Origin: Candidatus Gastranaerophilales bacterium
Lineage (GTDB): Bacteria > Cyanobacteriota > Vampirovibrionia > Gastranaerophilales > Gastranaerophilaceae
NCBI GenBank assembly: GCA_944324445.1
Contig: CALUWL010000013.1
Span: forward strand, 1-34,631
Reading direction: 5' to 3'
DNA length: 34,631 nt
The notes beneath the pieces were generated by a model. The model saw only the letters and a program-made list of their open reading frames with translations, did no database searches and was not told where the DNA came from. The translations under genes and the position numbers were made by a program. Of this stretch, positions 22,613 through 33,467 are shown piece by piece (the stretch's first letter is position 1; each line of letters opens with the position of its first letter).

Positions 22613-23551
22613 ATGAAAAACAATACTTTATTGTTTATAAGCACTCATTTGATAAACAAGGCAGTTATAAGTGAATATACAAAGTTATCAAAAGTTTCTA
22701 ATTGCGATTGTTTGCTTGTTATAGATAATACAAAGTTGCAACTACCTATAAATAACGACTGCAGGGTGCAAAAATTAACATTTTACGAAAAAGAAATAGA
22801 TTGTTTTTTGTTTGATGAAGATTTAAATAATAGCCTCAAATTACCCATGCTTGCAGCTCAAGCAAGCCAAGCAACTTTTGGCGATGTAATGTGGTCCAAT
22901 GCGGATTATCGTTTTATATATGTTAAAAAATATTTTCCAAACTATGATTACTATTGGCAATTTGATTACGATATATTTTGCAACGGAAAATCATACGAAA
23001 CCTTTATTAATAAATATCAACACAAAAAAGATGATTTATTAATATGCGGATTTAATAAAATTAACAAAGATACTGATTGGTGCTGGGCAAAAGATATAGA
23101 TTGGATTTACAAAGACACGCAACTGTATGGTTCTTTTTTTCCAATATGCAGATTGAGTAAAAATGCAATAGATTTTCTTTATCAAAAACGAATAGAATAT
23201 GGAAAATTGTACAAAAATTTAAACAACAACAAACAAAAATGGCCGTTATGTGAACTTTTTGTCCCAGTTGAACTTGCTAATAACAATTTTTCTTGTTCAG
23301 CAATAAATGAAAATACCATTCATTTACAAAACTACAATCTTAATGAAGACAGATTATTCGAAAATCCCGATGATAGATTATATCATCCTGTAAAATCTAA
23401 CATTGAAAACTTAAATAATGAAGTCAAATCAGATAAAATAAAATACAATTTTTTTCAAAAACTTTTTTCATTTCGTAACAGATATGAAAATTCAGTAAAA
23501 ATTAAAACTATATATTTATTATTTTTTAAAATTAGTTTTAAATGCAAATAA
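22613..23551 (+). CDS. putative glycosyltransferase-like protein
   Basis: This 312-aa cytosolic protein looks like a GT-A-type sugar transferase, without a clear family match. Supporting features are the N-terminal strand pattern, DYYWQFDYDIF (112-122) with a DxD-type metal motif at 118-120, and a later WPLCELFVPV segment. The C-terminus carries a short basic, hydrophobic tail (LLFFKISFKCK, about 302-312) that resembles the tail of the 31223-32572 protein. The start is ATG at 22613 after GGAAAGG. It stands alone, between the tRNA and a convergent gene, not in the sugar cluster. Function is inferred from weak motifs. Confidence 0.55.
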   Translation: MKNNTLLFISTHLINKAVISEYTKLSKVSNCDCLLVIDNTKLQLPINNDCRVQKLTFYEKEIDCFLFDEDLNNSLKLPMLAAQASQATFGDVMWSNADYRFIYVKKYFPNYDYYWQFDYDIFCNGKSYETFINKYQHKKDDLLICGFNKINKDTDWCWAKDIDWIYKDTQLYGSFFPICRLSKNAIDFLYQKRIEYGKLYKNLNNNKQKWPLCELFVPVELANNNFSCSAINENTIHLQNYNLNEDRLFENPDDRLYHPVKSNIENLNNEVKSDKIKYNFFQKLFSFRNRYENSVKIKTIYLLFFKISFKCK

Positions 23552-27252: not shown

Positions 27253-28845
27253 TTAAATATTTTGCATTGTAGTTATATTATCGAAATATAAAGATTTAGT
27301 TATTGAAGTAATATGAATAATATTTGAAATTTTTTCGAGCTCCTTTTTTATTATTTTGTTGCATGTATCAAATTCTTCCGGGCTAGAATTTAATATATAT
27401 TGATTTTGAGTATAGTTTTCTGATAAATTTCTTACAAAGCCATCTAAACCAGCTATTGTAACTTTTTTTACACCGACTGATATTAATACTTTTAAAAATA
27501 TTAAAGCCGTATTGTCATACAATGGAGAATTATTAATATATTTTGCATAACAAATTTTTAAAGAGTTGTTAGGTTCTTTTTCGACAATATTGGATGTTAT
27601 TATGGATTTAACTTTAAAATCAAATTGCAAGTACCGTTTAGCATTAGAAATAAAGACTACGTCAACCGGAAATTTATTCTGATTTATGTTTAAAGAAAAT
27701 ATAAACGGATTATTATTTTTGATATATTCATCAATTTTAGTTTTTTCTTTTTCTATACTTTTTCCAGGTGCAAGTATTAAAATTTCCCTATTTATGATGC
27801 TATCTTTTATGAATTTTATTGTTGCAGTATCATCTACAAAATTGCTTTGATATTCTAAATATAATTCTCTTATCAAATCTTTATTGAAGGTTGCTTTATT
27901 TTCCTGAGGTATGCTTTTTAAAATAGAATCTGTTGCTTCTACGGTAATTGTTTGTTTGTCAACTAGATAGGCAGCATAATTAGGGTGGCAAGAATTTATC
28001 GCAGCAAGATAATATGGAACAGAATATCCCCAAGGCGTAACTGCAAAAATTTTTGCAACATATTCATCTATAATTTTTAATATATTCAATAAATTATAAT
28101 TTTTGCCATAAATAGCATTTAGATGATTTGCCATAAGTTCAGTCGGAAGATTTCCAGCCCCCCGACCCATTCCAAAGACACATGTATCAATAATCAATTG
28201 TCTTTGCATATTTTCCTTTATTATCGATTGAGCATTAGAAAAAGAAAGCTGCAGATTATTATGAGAATGAAAACAAAGCACAATACCTTTATCTAAGAAG
28301 TTGTCAATGGTTCTTGTGTATTCTAATAGTTTTTTTTCATTTAATACCCCCATAGAATCCACAATAGAAAAACCGAATGGTTTTATTTTGTTTATTTCAT
28401 CAACCAAGCTAACAATTTCTTTAAGGCTATATTGATCTATAAAAGTAGGATTGATAAAAACTTTATACCCTTTTTTTATAAGCTCTCTTGCATATTTTAG
28501 AGCACCCTCTTTTTGCGGTTTTTTATATATAAGCCTGATAATTGAAAGCAGATTACTATTATAATCTGGAACTTTTTCTATAGGGAACTTCCCGTATGTA
28601 ATCATAGCAACTGCGCGATTTTTATCTGCATTTTCAGGTAGATAATCGTTAATTCTTTCAATTGAATTAAAAATACTTTTATTGTTATTTGTATTGCATT
28701 CTTCTAAAAATCCGCACTCAATATAATCAACGCCGGATAAATATAATTCATTTAGAATAAATTTAATTCCGTTTTCAGTGAAATTCCAATCGTTAATATA
28801 CCCGCCATCTCTTAGGGTGCAATCTAAAATACTGATTTTATTCAT
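27253..28845 (-). CDS. HMGL-like aldolase fused to a second Rossmann-like domain
   Basis: This is a 530-aa two-domain protein. Residues 1-290 are a TIM-barrel aldolase of the HMGL/4-hydroxy-2-oxovalerate aldolase type: DCTLRDGGY (8-16; Asp8, Arg12 and Asp13 expected in catalysis and metal binding), HSHNN with ligands His193 and His195, and GMGRGAGN (225-232). Residues about 352-530 form a separate domain with LILAPGKSI (356-364), DVVFISN and VTIAGLDGF, resembling the MptE-like/DUF115 region found in flagellin-modifying Maf proteins; it could be a transferase. ATG 28845 overlaps the CMP-sugar synthetase by eight bases and gives the family N-terminus. Last gene of the sugar operon. It may build the carbon skeleton of the CMP-activated sugar; that is inference. 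Confidence 0.75.
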   Translation of the reverse strand: MNKISILDCTLRDGGYINDWNFTENGIKFILNELYLSGVDYIECGFLEECNTNNNKSIFNSIERINDYLPENADKNRAVAMITYGKFPIEKVPDYNSNLLSIIRLIYKKPQKEGALKYARELIKKGYKVFINPTFIDQYSLKEIVSLVDEINKIKPFGFSIVDSMGVLNEKKLLEYTRTIDNFLDKGIVLCFHSHNNLQLSFSNAQSIIKENMQRQLIIDTCVFGMGRGAGNLPTELMANHLNAIYGKNYNLLNILKIIDEYVAKIFAVTPWGYSVPYYLAAINSCHPNYAAYLVDKQTITVEATDSILKSIPQENKATFNKDLIRELYLEYQSNFVDDTATIKFIKDSIINREILILAPGKSIEKEKTKIDEYIKNNNPFIFSLNINQNKFPVDVVFISNAKRYLQFDFKVKSIITSNIVEKEPNNSLKICYAKYINNSPLYDNTALIFLKVLISVGVKKVTIAGLDGFVRNLSENYTQNQYILNSSPEEFDTCNKIIKKELEKISNIIHITSITKSLYFDNITTMQNI

Positions 28846-29509
28846 TTGTTTTTCCAAGTACATACTTTTTATACATAAATTCTGCAAATTCAAAATCAAT
28901 TTCATAATCTATATCAGTTGCTTCTATATCTGAAATTGGATAAATATACGGTTTATCAGAAACAACATTTGCGGATTTAATCATTTGTTCTCTGGATAAA
29001 ATATTAACCGCAAAATTTAGACCTAAAATATTAGGCAAATCTTGGCTGCGAGGCATTTTTGCAACTTCGTAGTTAATTGGTTTGTTATCAAGCCACATAA
29101 ATTCTTTTATATTGTGCGCAGAATTAATTGAATGATATTCATCTTTTATTTCGAAAAAATTATCTATCATTTTTACAATAGTTTCATCCTTTATTAAAGG
29201 ATTGGTAACTGTGCAATGTATTATATAGTCGCTATCGCAATTTTCAGCTTGATTTTTATATACTTCATTAATAGAAACTGAATTAGACGCAAAATAATCA
29301 TCTCTTTTTACAACGGTAGCACCTAAGTTTTTTGCAATTTCCAACATCTCGTCAGAATTAGAATTAACAATTACATCGTCAATTTCTTTAATTCTTTTAA
29401 GTTGTTTGATTTTAATTGCAAGAAGTGAATCTCCCGCAAACGGTCTGATGTTTTTGTTTTTTACTCTTGTAGAACCTGAACGCACAGGTATAATTGCTTT
29501 TAGTGTCAT
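28838..29509 (-). CDS. CMP-sugar synthetase, acylneuraminate cytidylyltransferase family
   Basis: This 223-aa enzyme transfers CMP from CTP to a 2-keto sugar acid such as sialic, pseudaminic, legionaminic or Kdo-like acids. The CTP-binding signature IPVRSGSTRVKNKN (7-20) is intact, followed by the expected TNPL (about 97-103 region), RSQD, and late acidic residues DIEATDIDYEIDFEFAE for metal and sugar binding. The family fixes the chemistry but not the sugar. The start is ATG at 29509 after GAGGT. The HAD phosphatase gene ends seven bases upstream and the aldolase overlaps downstream, so the three are one unit. Confidence 0.9.
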   Translation of the reverse strand: MTLKAIIPVRSGSTRVKNKNIRPFAGDSLLAIKIKQLKRIKEIDDVIVNSNSDEMLEIAKNLGATVVKRDDYFASNSVSINEVYKNQAENCDSDYIIHCTVTNPLIKDETIVKMIDNFFEIKDEYHSINSAHNIKEFMWLDNKPINYEVAKMPRSQDLPNILGLNFAVNILSREQMIKSANVVSDKPYIYPISDIEATDIDYEIDFEFAEFMYKKYVLGKTNE

Positions 29510-29516
29510 ATTTACC

Positions 29517-30272
29517 TCAAATACATTTTATTTCACTTAAATTATTTATTGAATATTTGGAATACTTTTGTAATTCTTTAATAGAAATCTGACCTGTTGC
29601 AACAAGCAATGCTGCTTTAACAGAAGCATTTTGCGCCATTTCATAGTCCATTTTAGCGTCACCTATGCATATTACTTCATCTTTATTTAAATTATTTTGT
29701 TTTAATGCTTCAATCAGTGGCATGCCTGTTTTTTTAGGTGCGCTAAAATCGTTTTTTCCGTATATTTTATTAAAATACTTATCCAAATTAAACTTTTTTA
29801 AACAAGTAATTGCGTTTTCTTTCGTATCTGAAGTTATTAAAATTTGGTTAATATCATTTTTAAAAAATAATTTTATAGTATCTTCAACATAAGGTAAAAT
29901 CTGTACATAATCTATTGCTTCATCTTTAAATTCTTCATGTACATCATTAAATATTTGATTATTGGTTGTTTTACCTGAATCAATACCCATACCTAACAAG
30001 CCCTCGTGCAAGATTTCTAGAACTTCATCTCTGGATAAAAGTGCAATCGGGCCTTTTTCCATTAATTTTTGCGTTTTTAAATCAAAACCCATTAAAGCAC
30101 ATATTTTGTCTAAGTAATCTTTATTTACATTGTATGTATCGATTATTTTTTTGCTTCGGCGCTTTATTATCTCCCCCCAATAGCAATTTGAATCAATTAT
30201 TGTACCATCTTTATCCCATACAATTGTTTTTATATTTTTGATGATATTGCCGTCATTTAAAAGTATATCCAT
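29517..30272 (-). CDS. HAD-superfamily phosphatase
   Basis: This is a 251-aa cytosolic phosphatase of the HAD fold. Motif I is DKDGT (Asp20 nucleophile, Asp22), motif II TSD in LITSD, motif III the Lys of PKKTG, and motif IV GDAKMDYEMA. A helical cap lies between motifs I and II (about 30-125), typical of the phosphoglycolate phosphatase-like C1 group. Neighbours suggest that it dephosphorylates a sugar-acid phosphate before CMP activation, in the role of KdsC or Neu9P phosphatase, but that is inference. The start is ATG at 30272 with AGGAT upstream; the LdpA-like gene ends four bases before it. Confidence 0.87.
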   Translation of the reverse strand: MDILLNDGNIIKNIKTIVWDKDGTIIDSNCYWGEIIKRRSKKIIDTYNVNKDYLDKICALMGFDLKTQKLMEKGPIALLSRDEVLEILHEGLLGMGIDSGKTTNNQIFNDVHEEFKDEAIDYVQILPYVEDTIKLFFKNDINQILITSDTKENAITCLKKFNLDKYFNKIYGKNDFSAPKKTGMPLIEALKQNNLNKDEVICIGDAKMDYEMAQNASVKAALLVATGQISIKELQKYSKYSINNLSEIKCI

Positions 30273-30276
30273 TATC

Positions 30277-31230
30277 CTAACCCACTGTATTTACTAAATT
30301 TTTTGCTACAATAAGTGCTTTATTAAATTCTTCTTTATTTGATAAAAAATTCTCTTTTGAAATATAATCTTTAACTATTTTTCTTGCATAACTTCCTATT
30401 GCAACACCTGAAACGTCAACATTGCACAAATTAGCAAACTCCATTGTTTTTGAATTAGTTCCGCCGGACATAATTACAGGACAATTTATGTCTGATTTTA
30501 TAATTATATCAGCACAAGCAACAGCTTGCAGGGTTGTATTATAATCATCTTTTCCGCCGGACATAGGGGCGCCATCTGCTTGTATCATTACCCTATTTGG
30601 GCATTTATCTATCATTTTTTTTAGCTGAGATATTAAATCTTTATTTGAAAAAATTGATCTATCTGTACAAATACTTAAAATTCCATTAAAATTAGTGCAA
30701 AGATAATCCCATTTTTCATTAATATCATCAATATCATTTGAAATAATATGAAATTCTATACAATCGCAATCGTTTTTAATTTCAGGTAAAAAATCTTTCC
30801 ATTCAGACGACTTATAATATCTTTCGATTGCATTTTTGGGGCAATTATTTAAACATTTAGCGCAACCTATGCATTTTTTTTCATCAATTAAAATTAATTC
30901 TTCAATTAAAAAAATTGCATTTTGGATACAATCAGCTAAACATTTTTTGCATTTAACACATTTATCATTTAGTATTTTGCATTTTGATAAATGCGGGTCA
31001 TTTTTTCCTCCTACGCTTATACATAAAAAACAATCATCTTTACCTGATAACCTAAATCCTTTTTTAGCAGCTAAGATTGCTTCCTTGCTTGCATTAATAT
31101 CAAAAAAACGACATCCTGCAGCAGAATATAGTGCAGTTAACTTTGTTATTTCTTCATAATTTTCATTATTTGCGCCGAGAATTAATTTAAAACACTTTTT
31201 TTCTTTAAGAAAAGACGATAAATTATTCAA
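30277..31230 (-). CDS. LdpA-like protein with two 4Fe-4S clusters
   Basis: This 317-aa protein resembles cyanobacterial LdpA, known in Synechococcus as an iron-sulfur protein that affects the circadian clock through redox. The N-terminus (FKLILGANNENYEEITKL, then AGCRFFDINASKEAILAAK) and QADGAPMSGG near 220 match the family. Two ferredoxin motifs follow: Cys91-94-97-101 and Cys120-123-126-130 (CX2CX2CX3C twice). The frame begins with TTG at 31230, whose codon overlaps the previous stop; GGGGAAG precedes it, so translation is coupled. Here it sits in a sugar operon, between a glycosyltransferase-like gene and the HAD phosphatase, so a metabolic rather than clock role is likely. No clock gene is seen nearby. 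Confidence 0.8.
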   Translation of the reverse strand: MNNLSSFLKEKKCFKLILGANNENYEEITKLTALYSAAGCRFFDINASKEAILAAKKGFRLSGKDDCFLCISVGGKNDPHLSKCKILNDKCVKCKKCLADCIQNAIFLIEELILIDEKKCIGCAKCLNNCPKNAIERYYKSSEWKDFLPEIKNDCDCIEFHIISNDIDDINEKWDYLCTNFNGILSICTDRSIFSNKDLISQLKKMIDKCPNRVMIQADGAPMSGGKDDYNTTLQAVACADIIIKSDINCPVIMSGGTNSKTMEFANLCNVDVSGVAIGSYARKIVKDYISKENFLSNKEEFNKALIVAKNLVNTVG

Positions 31231-32572
31231 AACTTCCCCTTCTTGTTTTAAAACTGATTTTTATACCAAATAATCTAATTGTAATTTTATTACAGTTATC
31301 CAAATAAACTCTTTTTATAGAAAAAAGTTTGTTGTAGCCCATTTTCTCTGTTACATTATCAATAATATGATTAATTATGATGTCTATATTGTCATTTTTA
31401 CTGTAAAAATCAAAGGTTAGGCCGTTTTTAGAATAGTTTTTATATAGTTTATTAAAATAATCAGAATAAAAATATTTTTTTCTTAAACTTACACCAAGCA
31501 CATAGTAGTAAGTTAAAAGCCAATATATCGCTGCATTATAATCTTTTTTCGGGGAGTTTAAAGCTTCTTTAATATTATCTATGCTTCCATCAATTAAATC
31601 GCCATGACATGCGCAATATTTAATATTTCTACAATCAAATAATAAGGATTGTATAGGCATTGATAGGCTAATACCTGATAATATTGCATCAACATTCGGA
31701 TAAAAATAGTATGATGGAACTTGTTTTTTAAAATAATATTGTGCAAATATCATATTCGGATATTTTGAAATAAATTCATCATAATTTTTCTTATCAGATA
31801 AAAAATTCCCGCATGCATGTTCAGTTATTATAACTGCGTAGTTTTTAGGTACTTTAGATAGTATGCTGTCATAAAATGTTGCATAATCATTAAACTTTAA
31901 ATCTGTATTACAGTTTAAAATGCTTGACGGGAAAAATAATATTTTTTTATATTTTTTTCTTAATTTTTTAATTTCATTTTTTATTGGATTTTTGCGTTGA
32001 ATTATTTTTATTAAGCTTTTCTTTAATTTATTAATTTGGTCATATTGTTTTTTTGATATTTTAAAATTTATTATTTCATTGTGAAATTTGTTTAAGAAAC
32101 TGTCTTTATAAAAATTCAAAGGTTCATATGTAAAGCTATCAGGGAAGGGTGATCTCGAAAAAATTCCACACTCTCTCAAAAACACTAGAGAATTGGGATA
32201 CATCTTTCTTAGTAGTTTTGAATCCCATACAGTATAGCATATAATAACATCGGGCTTGTATCCTTCAGTTTTGGTTTTAATTAAATCAATATATCTATCA
32301 ATAGCATCTTTTGAGCCATTTAAATTAGAGAAAATTTCAAATTCATCTTCATTACCTATGGCTTCATGTAATTCTTCTTTAGTTATATGGTATGTTTTAA
32401 TCTTGGAAAAAATTTCAGTATTTTTTATTTCTTTTGCAATTTTATCGCCATAATGAAGGTATCTAATTTCGTTATTGTATGATATACTATCCAAAAAATC
32501 CATGCCACATGCATATTTTGCAACGGAAAAACAATCGGGTGTTCGATTTGTATAATATAATAATATCTTCAT
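31223..32572 (-). CDS. putative polysaccharide-related glycosyltransferase
   Basis: This is a 449-aa cytosolic protein. No family is certain. Near 140 it has FLRECGIFSRSPFPDSFTYEP, followed by a helical basic region (about 180-215) and a GT-B-like second half (KILFFPSSIL, YAVIITEHACG, VDAILSGISLSMPIQSLLF) in the order strand, helix, strand seen in KpsC/KpsS-like and related capsule enzymes. The tail LFGIKISFK (434-442) is a short hydrophobic-basic segment like that of the 22613-23551 protein. ATG 32572 has GGAAAT upstream; the extra upstream TTG is the weaker choice. It overlaps the LdpA-like gene by eight bases and lies in the same operon. Confidence 0.55.
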   Translation of the reverse strand: MKILLYYTNRTPDCFSVAKYACGMDFLDSISYNNEIRYLHYGDKIAKEIKNTEIFSKIKTYHITKEELHEAIGNEDEFEIFSNLNGSKDAIDRYIDLIKTKTEGYKPDVIICYTVWDSKLLRKMYPNSLVFLRECGIFSRSPFPDSFTYEPLNFYKDSFLNKFHNEIINFKISKKQYDQINKLKKSLIKIIQRKNPIKNEIKKLRKKYKKILFFPSSILNCNTDLKFNDYATFYDSILSKVPKNYAVIITEHACGNFLSDKKNYDEFISKYPNMIFAQYYFKKQVPSYYFYPNVDAILSGISLSMPIQSLLFDCRNIKYCACHGDLIDGSIDNIKEALNSPKKDYNAAIYWLLTYYYVLGVSLRKKYFYSDYFNKLYKNYSKNGLTFDFYSKNDNIDIIINHIIDNVTEKMGYNKLFSIKRVYLDNCNKITIRLFGIKISFKTRRGSFE

Positions 32573-32633
32573 TTTTATTTCCAACAGTTTTATTATAAGA
32601 ATTGTACAATAAAATTTCTCTTTTGAAAATTTT

Positions 32634-33467
32634 TTATATTATTTCATTTATTGCCTTTTGAAAATTGTATTTTAAAGTAAAATTTATATCATATTTTAAT
32701 TTTTTATTATCTCCAATAATTTTTAAAGGTTCTATTGTTTTTTCTTTTTTTAAAATTAAAAGATTTTCTTTATTCATTTGTTTTGCAATTTCATAAGCAA
32801 AATCACCCAGCGATATTCCTTTTGCTGTTGAGATGTTAACTATACCTGTGATGTTGCTATCAAGGAAACTTACAAATGCTGCTGCTATATCTTTTGTATA
32901 CATATAATCTTTAATTAGCTGCGAACATTTTATTTCAACAGGAATGTTATTTTTTAAATTGTTAATTATGTAAGGAGTGAGCCTGTTTGGATGCTCGTTT
33001 GAACCGAAAACGTAAAATATTCTTCCCCAGCCAAAATCAAAACCCAGTTTTTCTGATAATTCAAATCCTTTTTCCATTAATTTAACTTTTGATTTAGCAT
33101 AAAGCGTTACGGGGTTTAATTCGTCTGTTTCTTTAAGGGGTTCATCTTTAAATTTATATTCAAAGCAAGTTCCTGCAAATACTGCCTTTTTTCCGCCATT
33201 TTCGCCAAAATATTTAAGTAAATTAATTCCTGCAATCAAATATTTATTATTTATTTCGGATTCAAGATACCCTTTTTTAGTGTCCCATGCAAAATGCAAT
33301 AGGTGAGTAGGTTTATGTAGCTTTAAAAAATCTTTAATTGAATTTTCGCTAAATAAATCGCAATTATCTCGATTTAGATAAATTATTTCAAATCCGCTTT
33401 CTTTAAGCGGGTAGATTGCTTGTTGACCAATAAGACCACTTGCTCCTGTTAAAACTACTTTTTTCAT
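32634..33467 (-). CDS. NAD-dependent epimerase/dehydratase (extended SDR)
   Basis: This 277-aa sugar-nucleotide-type oxidoreductase has the Rossmann motif TGASGLIG (7-14) and the catalytic YAKSK (Tyr123, Lys127). The Ser/Thr of the triad is likely Thr100 in FAGTCFEY. The tail is shorter than in many 310-350 aa members. The exact reaction (4- or 5-epimerisation, dehydration or reduction) cannot be read. The start is ATG at 33467, after GAGGT at suitable spacing. It is the first gene of the sugar cluster, 61 bases before the glycosyltransferase-like gene and 63 bases after the M16 peptidase on the same strand. Confidence 0.85.
   Translation of the reverse strand: MKKVVLTGASGLIGQQAIYPLKESGFEIIYLNRDNCDLFSENSIKDFLKLHKPTHLLHFAWDTKKGYLESEINNKYLIAGINLLKYFGENGGKKAVFAGTCFEYKFKDEPLKETDELNPVTLYAKSKVKLMEKGFELSEKLGFDFGWGRIFYVFGSNEHPNRLTPYIINNLKNNIPVEIKCSQLIKDYMYTKDIAAAFVSFLDSNITGIVNISTAKGISLGDFAYEIAKQMNKENLLILKKEKTIEPLKIIGDNKKLKYDINFTLKYNFQKAINEII

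Follow-up and report, generated by a model that had tools for sequence, protein, structure and literature searches.

The 34,631-nucleotide contig CALUWL010000013.1 of Candidatus Gastranaerophilales bacterium (assembly GCA_944324445.1), referred to below as the window, carries a tightly packed cluster of six genes at positions 27,253 to 33,467 in which a two-domain aldolase accompanies a cytidine monophosphate (CMP)-sugar synthetase. This cluster is probably one instance of a widespread and apparently undescribed module for producing a CMP-activated 2-keto-3-deoxy (ulosonic-type) sugar acid. Such an aldolase-fed module, which would represent a variant of CMP-ulosonic acid biosynthesis, is the best-supported account of the genes, and the association between them is strong. 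The genome to which the window belongs, as contig C13, measures 1.8 Mb and is 97% complete; its gene content and relatives point to a Melainabacteria-like bacterium. All six genes named in the original prediction are present. They lie on the minus strand, tightly packed, with spacings between neighbors of -68 to +49 bp:

32634-33467, minus strand: NAD-dependent sugar epimerase/dehydratase (short SDR); PF01370 Epimerase, 85.0 bits; syntenic homologue in locus L059 63% identical
31223-32584, minus strand: glycosyltransferase-like protein (GTx); without a significant Pfam, NCBIfam or PHROGs family
30277-31230, minus strand: LdpA-like 2x[4Fe-4S] protein; LdpA_C, 62.8 bits; ferredoxin motifs
29517-30272, minus strand: HAD phosphatase of the DKDG..YW subfamily; HAD_2, 84.4 bits
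28838-29509, minus strand: CMP-sugar synthetase (NeuA/PseF-like cytidylyltransferase); PF02348 CTP_transf_3, 85.2 bits
27253-28905 (likely true start 28845), minus strand: two-domain aldolase; PF00682 HMGL-like, 61.6 bits

The listed start of the aldolase gene overlaps the synthetase gene by 68 bp; relatives, however, have their first residue at the position of Met21, which makes 28845 the probable true start and gives an 8-bp overlap and a protein of 530 aa. The earlier assignments of an HMGL-type aldolase and a CMP synthetase were confirmed, with PF00682 and PF02348 both above cut-off, while the second domain of the aldolase had been overlooked.

Conservation of the module

Within the order, 146 genomes were surveyed and an aldolase match was found in 112. 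A cytidylyltransferase gene directly adjoins 22 of the 26 two-domain aldolases, a count that combines 20 of the 21 loci first gathered with L224 and L225, which have such a neighbor, and L201-L203, which do not. The corresponding figures for one-domain aldolases are 2/22 in the order and 1/9 in the wider set, and for unrelated open reading frames (ORFs) in the same loci, taken as a control, 12/411. Viewed from the other partner, homologues of the window synthetase with at least 49% identity in these 146 genomes adjoin such an aldolase in 13 of 13 cases. In a 96-row tree, the C-terminal domain of the aldolase and the synthetase are gained or lost jointly in about six of nine independent pairs, with almost none discordant (sign test, p ~0.03), and L059, the window's nearest relative, which occupies the same genomic site, possesses neither. 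The locus L046 (G135:C5) houses four CMP synthetase homologues alongside a pair of two-domain aldolases.

The module extends well beyond the order. A wider survey of about 85,000 species genomes yielded at least 80 loci, with two-domain aldolases in Pseudomonadota, Bacteroidota, Bacillota, Omnitrophota and Verrucomicrobiota as well as in this order, i.e., in at least six phyla. Among the matches listed, a same-strand cytidylyltransferase lies within 3.5 kb of 63 of the 72 two-domain aldolases (46 of them within 100 bp) and a HAD gene within 3.5 kb of 46 of the 72; exceptions to the former count are mostly explained by contig ends, a mis-extended ORF, a fusion or loci of Pelagibacter. Plasmids of Leisingera carry aldolase-KdsB-HAD sets in glycan clusters, the aldolase being 24% identical to that of the window, and in L135 (1184-2896) the aldolase domain is fused directly to a KdsB-like cytidylyltransferase in a 570-aa protein without the sialyltransferase-fold domain. 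In L132 and several other loci, the aldolase, cytidylyltransferase and HAD genes are immediately followed by a gene of the GT29 sialyltransferase family. The surroundings include polysaccharide synthesis genes (flippase, Wzz, glycosyltransferases), and no sugar uptake or catabolic genes were seen in the module loci examined. In L045 and L077, many of the glycan genes open with similar short motifs (FSIKN..HKV..LGIK).

The original prediction had proposed a search for genomes in which the aldolase, CMP synthetase and HAD genes co-occur without neuB or kdsA, and such genomes do exist. Among 45 module genomes, 27 have a strong NeuB match and 18 are without a credible NeuB. Neither KdsA nor NanA rises above cut-off in the NeuB-less genomes of Rossellomorea aquimaris and of Bacillus, Rikenellaceae and Bacilli metagenome-assembled genomes, the latter three possibly being incomplete. 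The clearest case is R. aquimaris (L095), which possesses the full aldolase-synthetase-phosphatase module and whose single convincing CMP-sugar synthetase lies within it. Where NeuB is present, it is usually encoded elsewhere in the genome, or in the same locus with an extra synthetase of its own.

The two-domain aldolase

The aldolase comprises a DmpG-type HMGL barrel (residues ~24-290), linker helices and a C-terminal domain of sialyltransferase/MptE-like fold (~356-550), and AlphaFold models the full-length protein with confidence (predicted local distance difference test, pLDDT, 90.4). The N-terminal domain clearly belongs to the HMGL-like (DRE-TIM) metalloaldolases, its PF00682 score exceeding the gathering score of 29 and the expected Arg-Asp pair close to the N-terminus being present together with the HxH metal ligands; the metal/enolate residues R32, D33, H213, H215 and N217 are invariant across 51 relatives. 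Its best structural match is PDB 3dxi (E 4e-25), a structural-genomics entry for the N-terminal domain of the putative aldolase BVU_2661 of Bacteroides vulgatus. That entry is without the C-terminal domain, and no functional report on it was found. DmpG-type aldolases come next, the nearest solved aldolase with known function being 4-hydroxy-2-oxovalerate aldolase.

The window aldolase shares with DmpG/BphI the fold, the Asp/His/His metal site and the Arg that binds the enolate. It differs from these enzymes in having Tyr where they have their catalytic His, in bearing the extra sialyltransferase-fold domain and in sitting in a glycan context. Likewise, it is without their acetaldehyde dehydrogenase partner, no acylating acetaldehyde dehydrogenase being found among its neighbors in the window, and it does not reach the DmpG equivalog TIGR03217 (57.1 bits vs. 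a cut-off of 286).

The C-terminal domain, modeled in isolation at a pLDDT of 90.3, was compared with known folds by several routes. Structural re-alignment gave Z scores of 11.6 for MptE, 11.3 for CstII, 10.2 for CstI and 7.0-8.7 for mammalian sialyltransferases, with SteA also well above other folds and unrelated rows beginning at about 5. A plain Foldseek search returned MptE alone at E<0.001, and the next matches were Rossmann proteins; it was the re-alignment and a profile search that set the sialyltransferase group apart, CstI/CstII and MptE coming first when the C-domain profile was run against the PDB. The MptE-like family PF01973 has no match in the window C-domain but matches 21 of 44 relatives at E<0.1, and the L201 homologue exceeds its gathering score (36.2 vs. 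34.6). A PHROGs search of the domain gave nothing useful. The domain shares a fold (Z 10-11.6) and GxGPS / GxDGY-type motifs with the GT42 enzymes CstI/CstII and with MptE-like proteins, but identity is only 14-17% and the domain is fused to an aldolase. At the catalytic His and CMP-binding residues of the sialyltransferases, where the profile alignment to CstII is weak, no conserved His was seen.

Known synthases and rival explanations

The original prediction stressed that no NeuB or KdsA gene accompanies the cluster. This holds for the window, where NeuB and KdsA (PF03102, PF00793) have no match anywhere on contig C13, but not for the genome, which encodes KdsA on contig C50, KdsB on C21, another NeuA-like enzyme on C41 and, on C12, a 289-aa NeuB whose gene precedes that of a KdsC-like HAD. 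Taken literally, then, the neuB or kdsA gene elsewhere that the prediction had named as grounds for its rejection does exist, yet KdsA has a KdsB of its own, and NeuB the KdsC-like HAD, with an extra NeuA-like gene available. Of the three CMP-sugar synthetases in the genome, the two outside the window offer evident partners for KdsA and NeuB. No HpaI aldolase was found in the genome, and the sole NanA-like match is the window's own DapA, far under cut-off. What survives of the proposed aldolase-based route is a module of aldolase, CMP synthetase and HAD genes that is kept across phyla, also in genomes with no NeuB, KdsA or NanA above cut-off; a literal genome-wide absence of NeuB and KdsA does not. 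In locus L008 (8198-9570), a short NeuB (289 aa) and a KdsC-like HAD lie amid tetratricopeptide repeat genes, distant from any CMP synthetase gene.

Four other explanations were weighed. It is unlikely that the window synthetase is supplied by the genome's NeuB or KdsA, with the aldolase serving the same glycan in another manner, e.g., in a side chain or another sugar. The presence of NeuB with its KdsC-like HAD and of KdsA in the genome counts against an aldolase-fed route and favors this explanation, which the strong NeuB match in 27/45 module genomes also favors. However, both genes lie far from the cluster and already have KdsB and the second NeuA-like enzyme at their disposal, some module genomes have neither NeuB nor KdsA, and the synthetase is tied to the aldolase rather than to NeuB, which tends to lie elsewhere or to have its own synthetase. 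It appears improbable that the aldolase cleaves a sugar acid or keto acid, so that the module salvages or remodels CMP-sugars instead of building them. DmpG-type enzymes are physiologically cleaving aldolases, but the polysaccharide synthesis genes around the module, among which no uptake or catabolic genes were seen, the synthetase directly adjoining the aldolase, and the HAD enzyme, which suggests a phosphorylated intermediate, all weigh against this reading.

There is little to recommend the HMGL domain as a Claisen-type enzyme that joins an acyl-CoA to a 2-keto acid, in the manner of citramalate or isopropylmalate synthase, to form a non-sugar acid that is then CMP-activated. The superfamily is the same and weaker matches to homocitrate and isopropylmalate synthases were obtained; the best models and structures, however, are 4-hydroxy-2-oxovalerate aldolases and 3dxi, and the aldolase motif is LRDGGY rather than the LRDGEQ typical of Claisen enzymes. 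Finally, chance proximity or local shuffling of glycan genes without a common pathway is very improbable indeed. Two genomes of the same genus (L208 and L209) do have a locus of M16-LdpA-CDF-DAPDH without the other cluster genes, and the window set was therefore assembled here. Nonetheless, chance adjacency was rejected, and is largely refuted, by the cross-phylum survey, in which the pairing recurs in differing gene orders and as a fusion, and by the control rate of 12/411.

Several observations do weigh against an aldolase-fed pathway. Two-domain aldolases without an adjacent synthetase occur in L044, in L201-L203 and in the Pelagibacter loci L107, L108 and L127. An HpaI-type pyruvate aldolase is also present in four modules (L088, L090, L109 and L121) and could perform the condensation instead. 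In the aldolase itself, an invariant Tyr36 occupies the position of the DmpG catalytic His. In the two-domain aldolases of L057 (6842-8464) and L058 (7044-8666), LREAP replaces LRDGG, exchanging the metal-site Asp for Glu; these enzymes, which still adjoin synthetase and HAD genes, are perhaps altered or inactive. No enzyme assay was found for any member of the aldolase family, and the substrate cannot be read from the fold of the aldolase by itself, given that one-domain relatives operate in different settings.

Proposed pathway and comparison with known systems

In the proposed CMP-sugar-acid pathway, the donor, acceptor, order and direction of steps, product and role of the C-domain are all predicted from the genes and their arrangement. 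The DmpG-like, metal-dependent HMGL aldolase would form the carbon-carbon bond, most likely between the enolate of pyruvate and a sugar-derived, probably phosphorylated aldehyde, and the HAD enzyme would strip the phosphate from the product. The NeuA/PseF-like (in other loci KdsB-like) cytidylyltransferase would then yield the CMP-sugar, which a glycosyltransferase may place on a surface glycan. The C-domain of the aldolase would most likely handle the CMP-sugar or a related nucleotide, either as a transferase or as a binding or channeling domain.

Like the CMP-sialic, legionaminic and pseudaminic acid pathways (NeuB plus NeuA/PseF), the module has a NeuA/PseF-type cytidylyltransferase in a glycan cluster, a likely CMP-activated acid product and, in some loci, sialyltransferase-family genes close by. 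It differs from them in that an HMGL/DmpG-type aldolase takes the synthase position, the cluster contains no NeuB, the HAD phosphatase is separate and many relatives have a KdsB-like synthetase. This last feature is shared with the KdsD-KdsA-KdsC-KdsB pathway to CMP-Kdo (3-deoxy-D-manno-octulosonic acid), as is the logic of condensation, phosphatase and cytidylyltransferase; the module is, however, without KdsA, its HAD belongs to another subfamily, and the window genome keeps a separate KdsA and KdsB. No description of this gene combination was found in the open-access literature; subscription papers were not covered, so an earlier report is possible.

It is tempting, though doubtful at present, to go further and suggest that the aldolases form a third sugar-acid synthase family, unrelated to NeuB and KdsA, that uses a divalent metal and probably pyruvate rather than phosphoenolpyruvate to make a CMP-ulosonic acid in at least six phyla, and that these proteins are bifunctional, the C-domain adding a CMP-sugar-handling (possibly transferring) activity to that of the synthase. 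The prediction of CMP-activated sugars in bacteria generally starts from NeuB or KdsA genes, and acidic surface sugars would, if an aldolase-fed route is real, have been overlooked by annotation in many marine, gut and Gram-positive bacteria. It would also provide a new carbon-carbon bond-forming step in sugar-acid biosynthesis, a function for the 3dxi structural-genomics aldolase family and a ready aldolase for producing sugar acids. Gram-positive genomes without NeuB, KdsA and NanA make the question directly testable.

Other genes of the cluster

The alignment of the synthetase with NeuA structures spans its full length and takes in both the PRxQD motif and the Asp-rich C-terminal motif; its membership in CTP_transf_3 is clear from these motifs and the PF02348 score. 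It falls under the equivalog cut-offs for both PseF (81.1 vs. 205.7) and kdsB (31.0 vs. 155.2). The HAD phosphatase keeps the catalytic Asp20, Asp22, Asp205 and Asp209 and is 33-42% identical to the LdpA-adjoining HADs of L201, L202, L203 and L212.

The GTx protein is a candidate transferase for the CMP-activated product, because both of its relatives in the order share a gene run with a CMP-sugar synthetase. Such relatives occur in only 2 of the 146 genomes, both close downstream of the synthetase gene: in L230 the two genes directly adjoin, and in L231 they belong to the same run. A phmmer search against the loci gathered before the order search returned no relative, and a PHROGs search gave nothing useful. 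In L230 (896-8443) and L231 (1877-9098), the synthetase and GTx homologue have an HpaI aldolase and a thiamine pyrophosphate (TPP) enzyme nearby and no HMGL aldolase, possibly constituting another aldolase-to-CMP route. The window's GTx (31223-32584) and the protein at 22613-23551 share a similar hydrophobic tail, ..TIRLFGIKISFKTR and ..IYLLFFKISFKCK, respectively.

The LdpA-like protein is listed by the original prediction as part of the cluster, but a pathway-specific role was not borne out. Every one of the 146 order genomes carries the gene, which in L208 and L209 lies between M16 and CDF-DAPDH genes, and it is therefore a resident of the locus rather than a pathway-specific gene; its candidacy as a dedicated pathway enzyme is correspondingly weakened. 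The protein keeps its eight Cys and is 36-40% identical to module members in L109 and L121, but it does not reach NF045992 (LdpA; 110.4 bits vs. 450), though LdpA_C passes, and phmmer against the PDB gave ferredoxin matches only. In cyanobacteria, LdpA is described as an iron-sulfur redox sensor of the clock whose action on CikA is unexplained (PMC13421787). Nevertheless, LdpA recurs alongside a two-domain aldolase and a related HAD in L201-L203 and, in other phyla, in L109 and L121. This linkage to aldolase and/or HAD genes in many genomes offers a metabolic lead for LdpA, which is known solely from the clock of cyanobacteria.

Specifically, L201 (4092-10045), L202 (6118-12109) and L203 (6205-12147) contain operons in the order LdpA, HAD, two-domain aldolase, HpaI aldolase, TPP enzyme. 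No CMP synthetase is among these genes, which possibly serve a pathway to a branched or higher-carbon sugar. The L203 operon is preceded by genes resembling those of cytidine diphosphate (CDP)-sugar synthesis (nucleotidyltransferase, dehydratase and DegT/RfbH-like).

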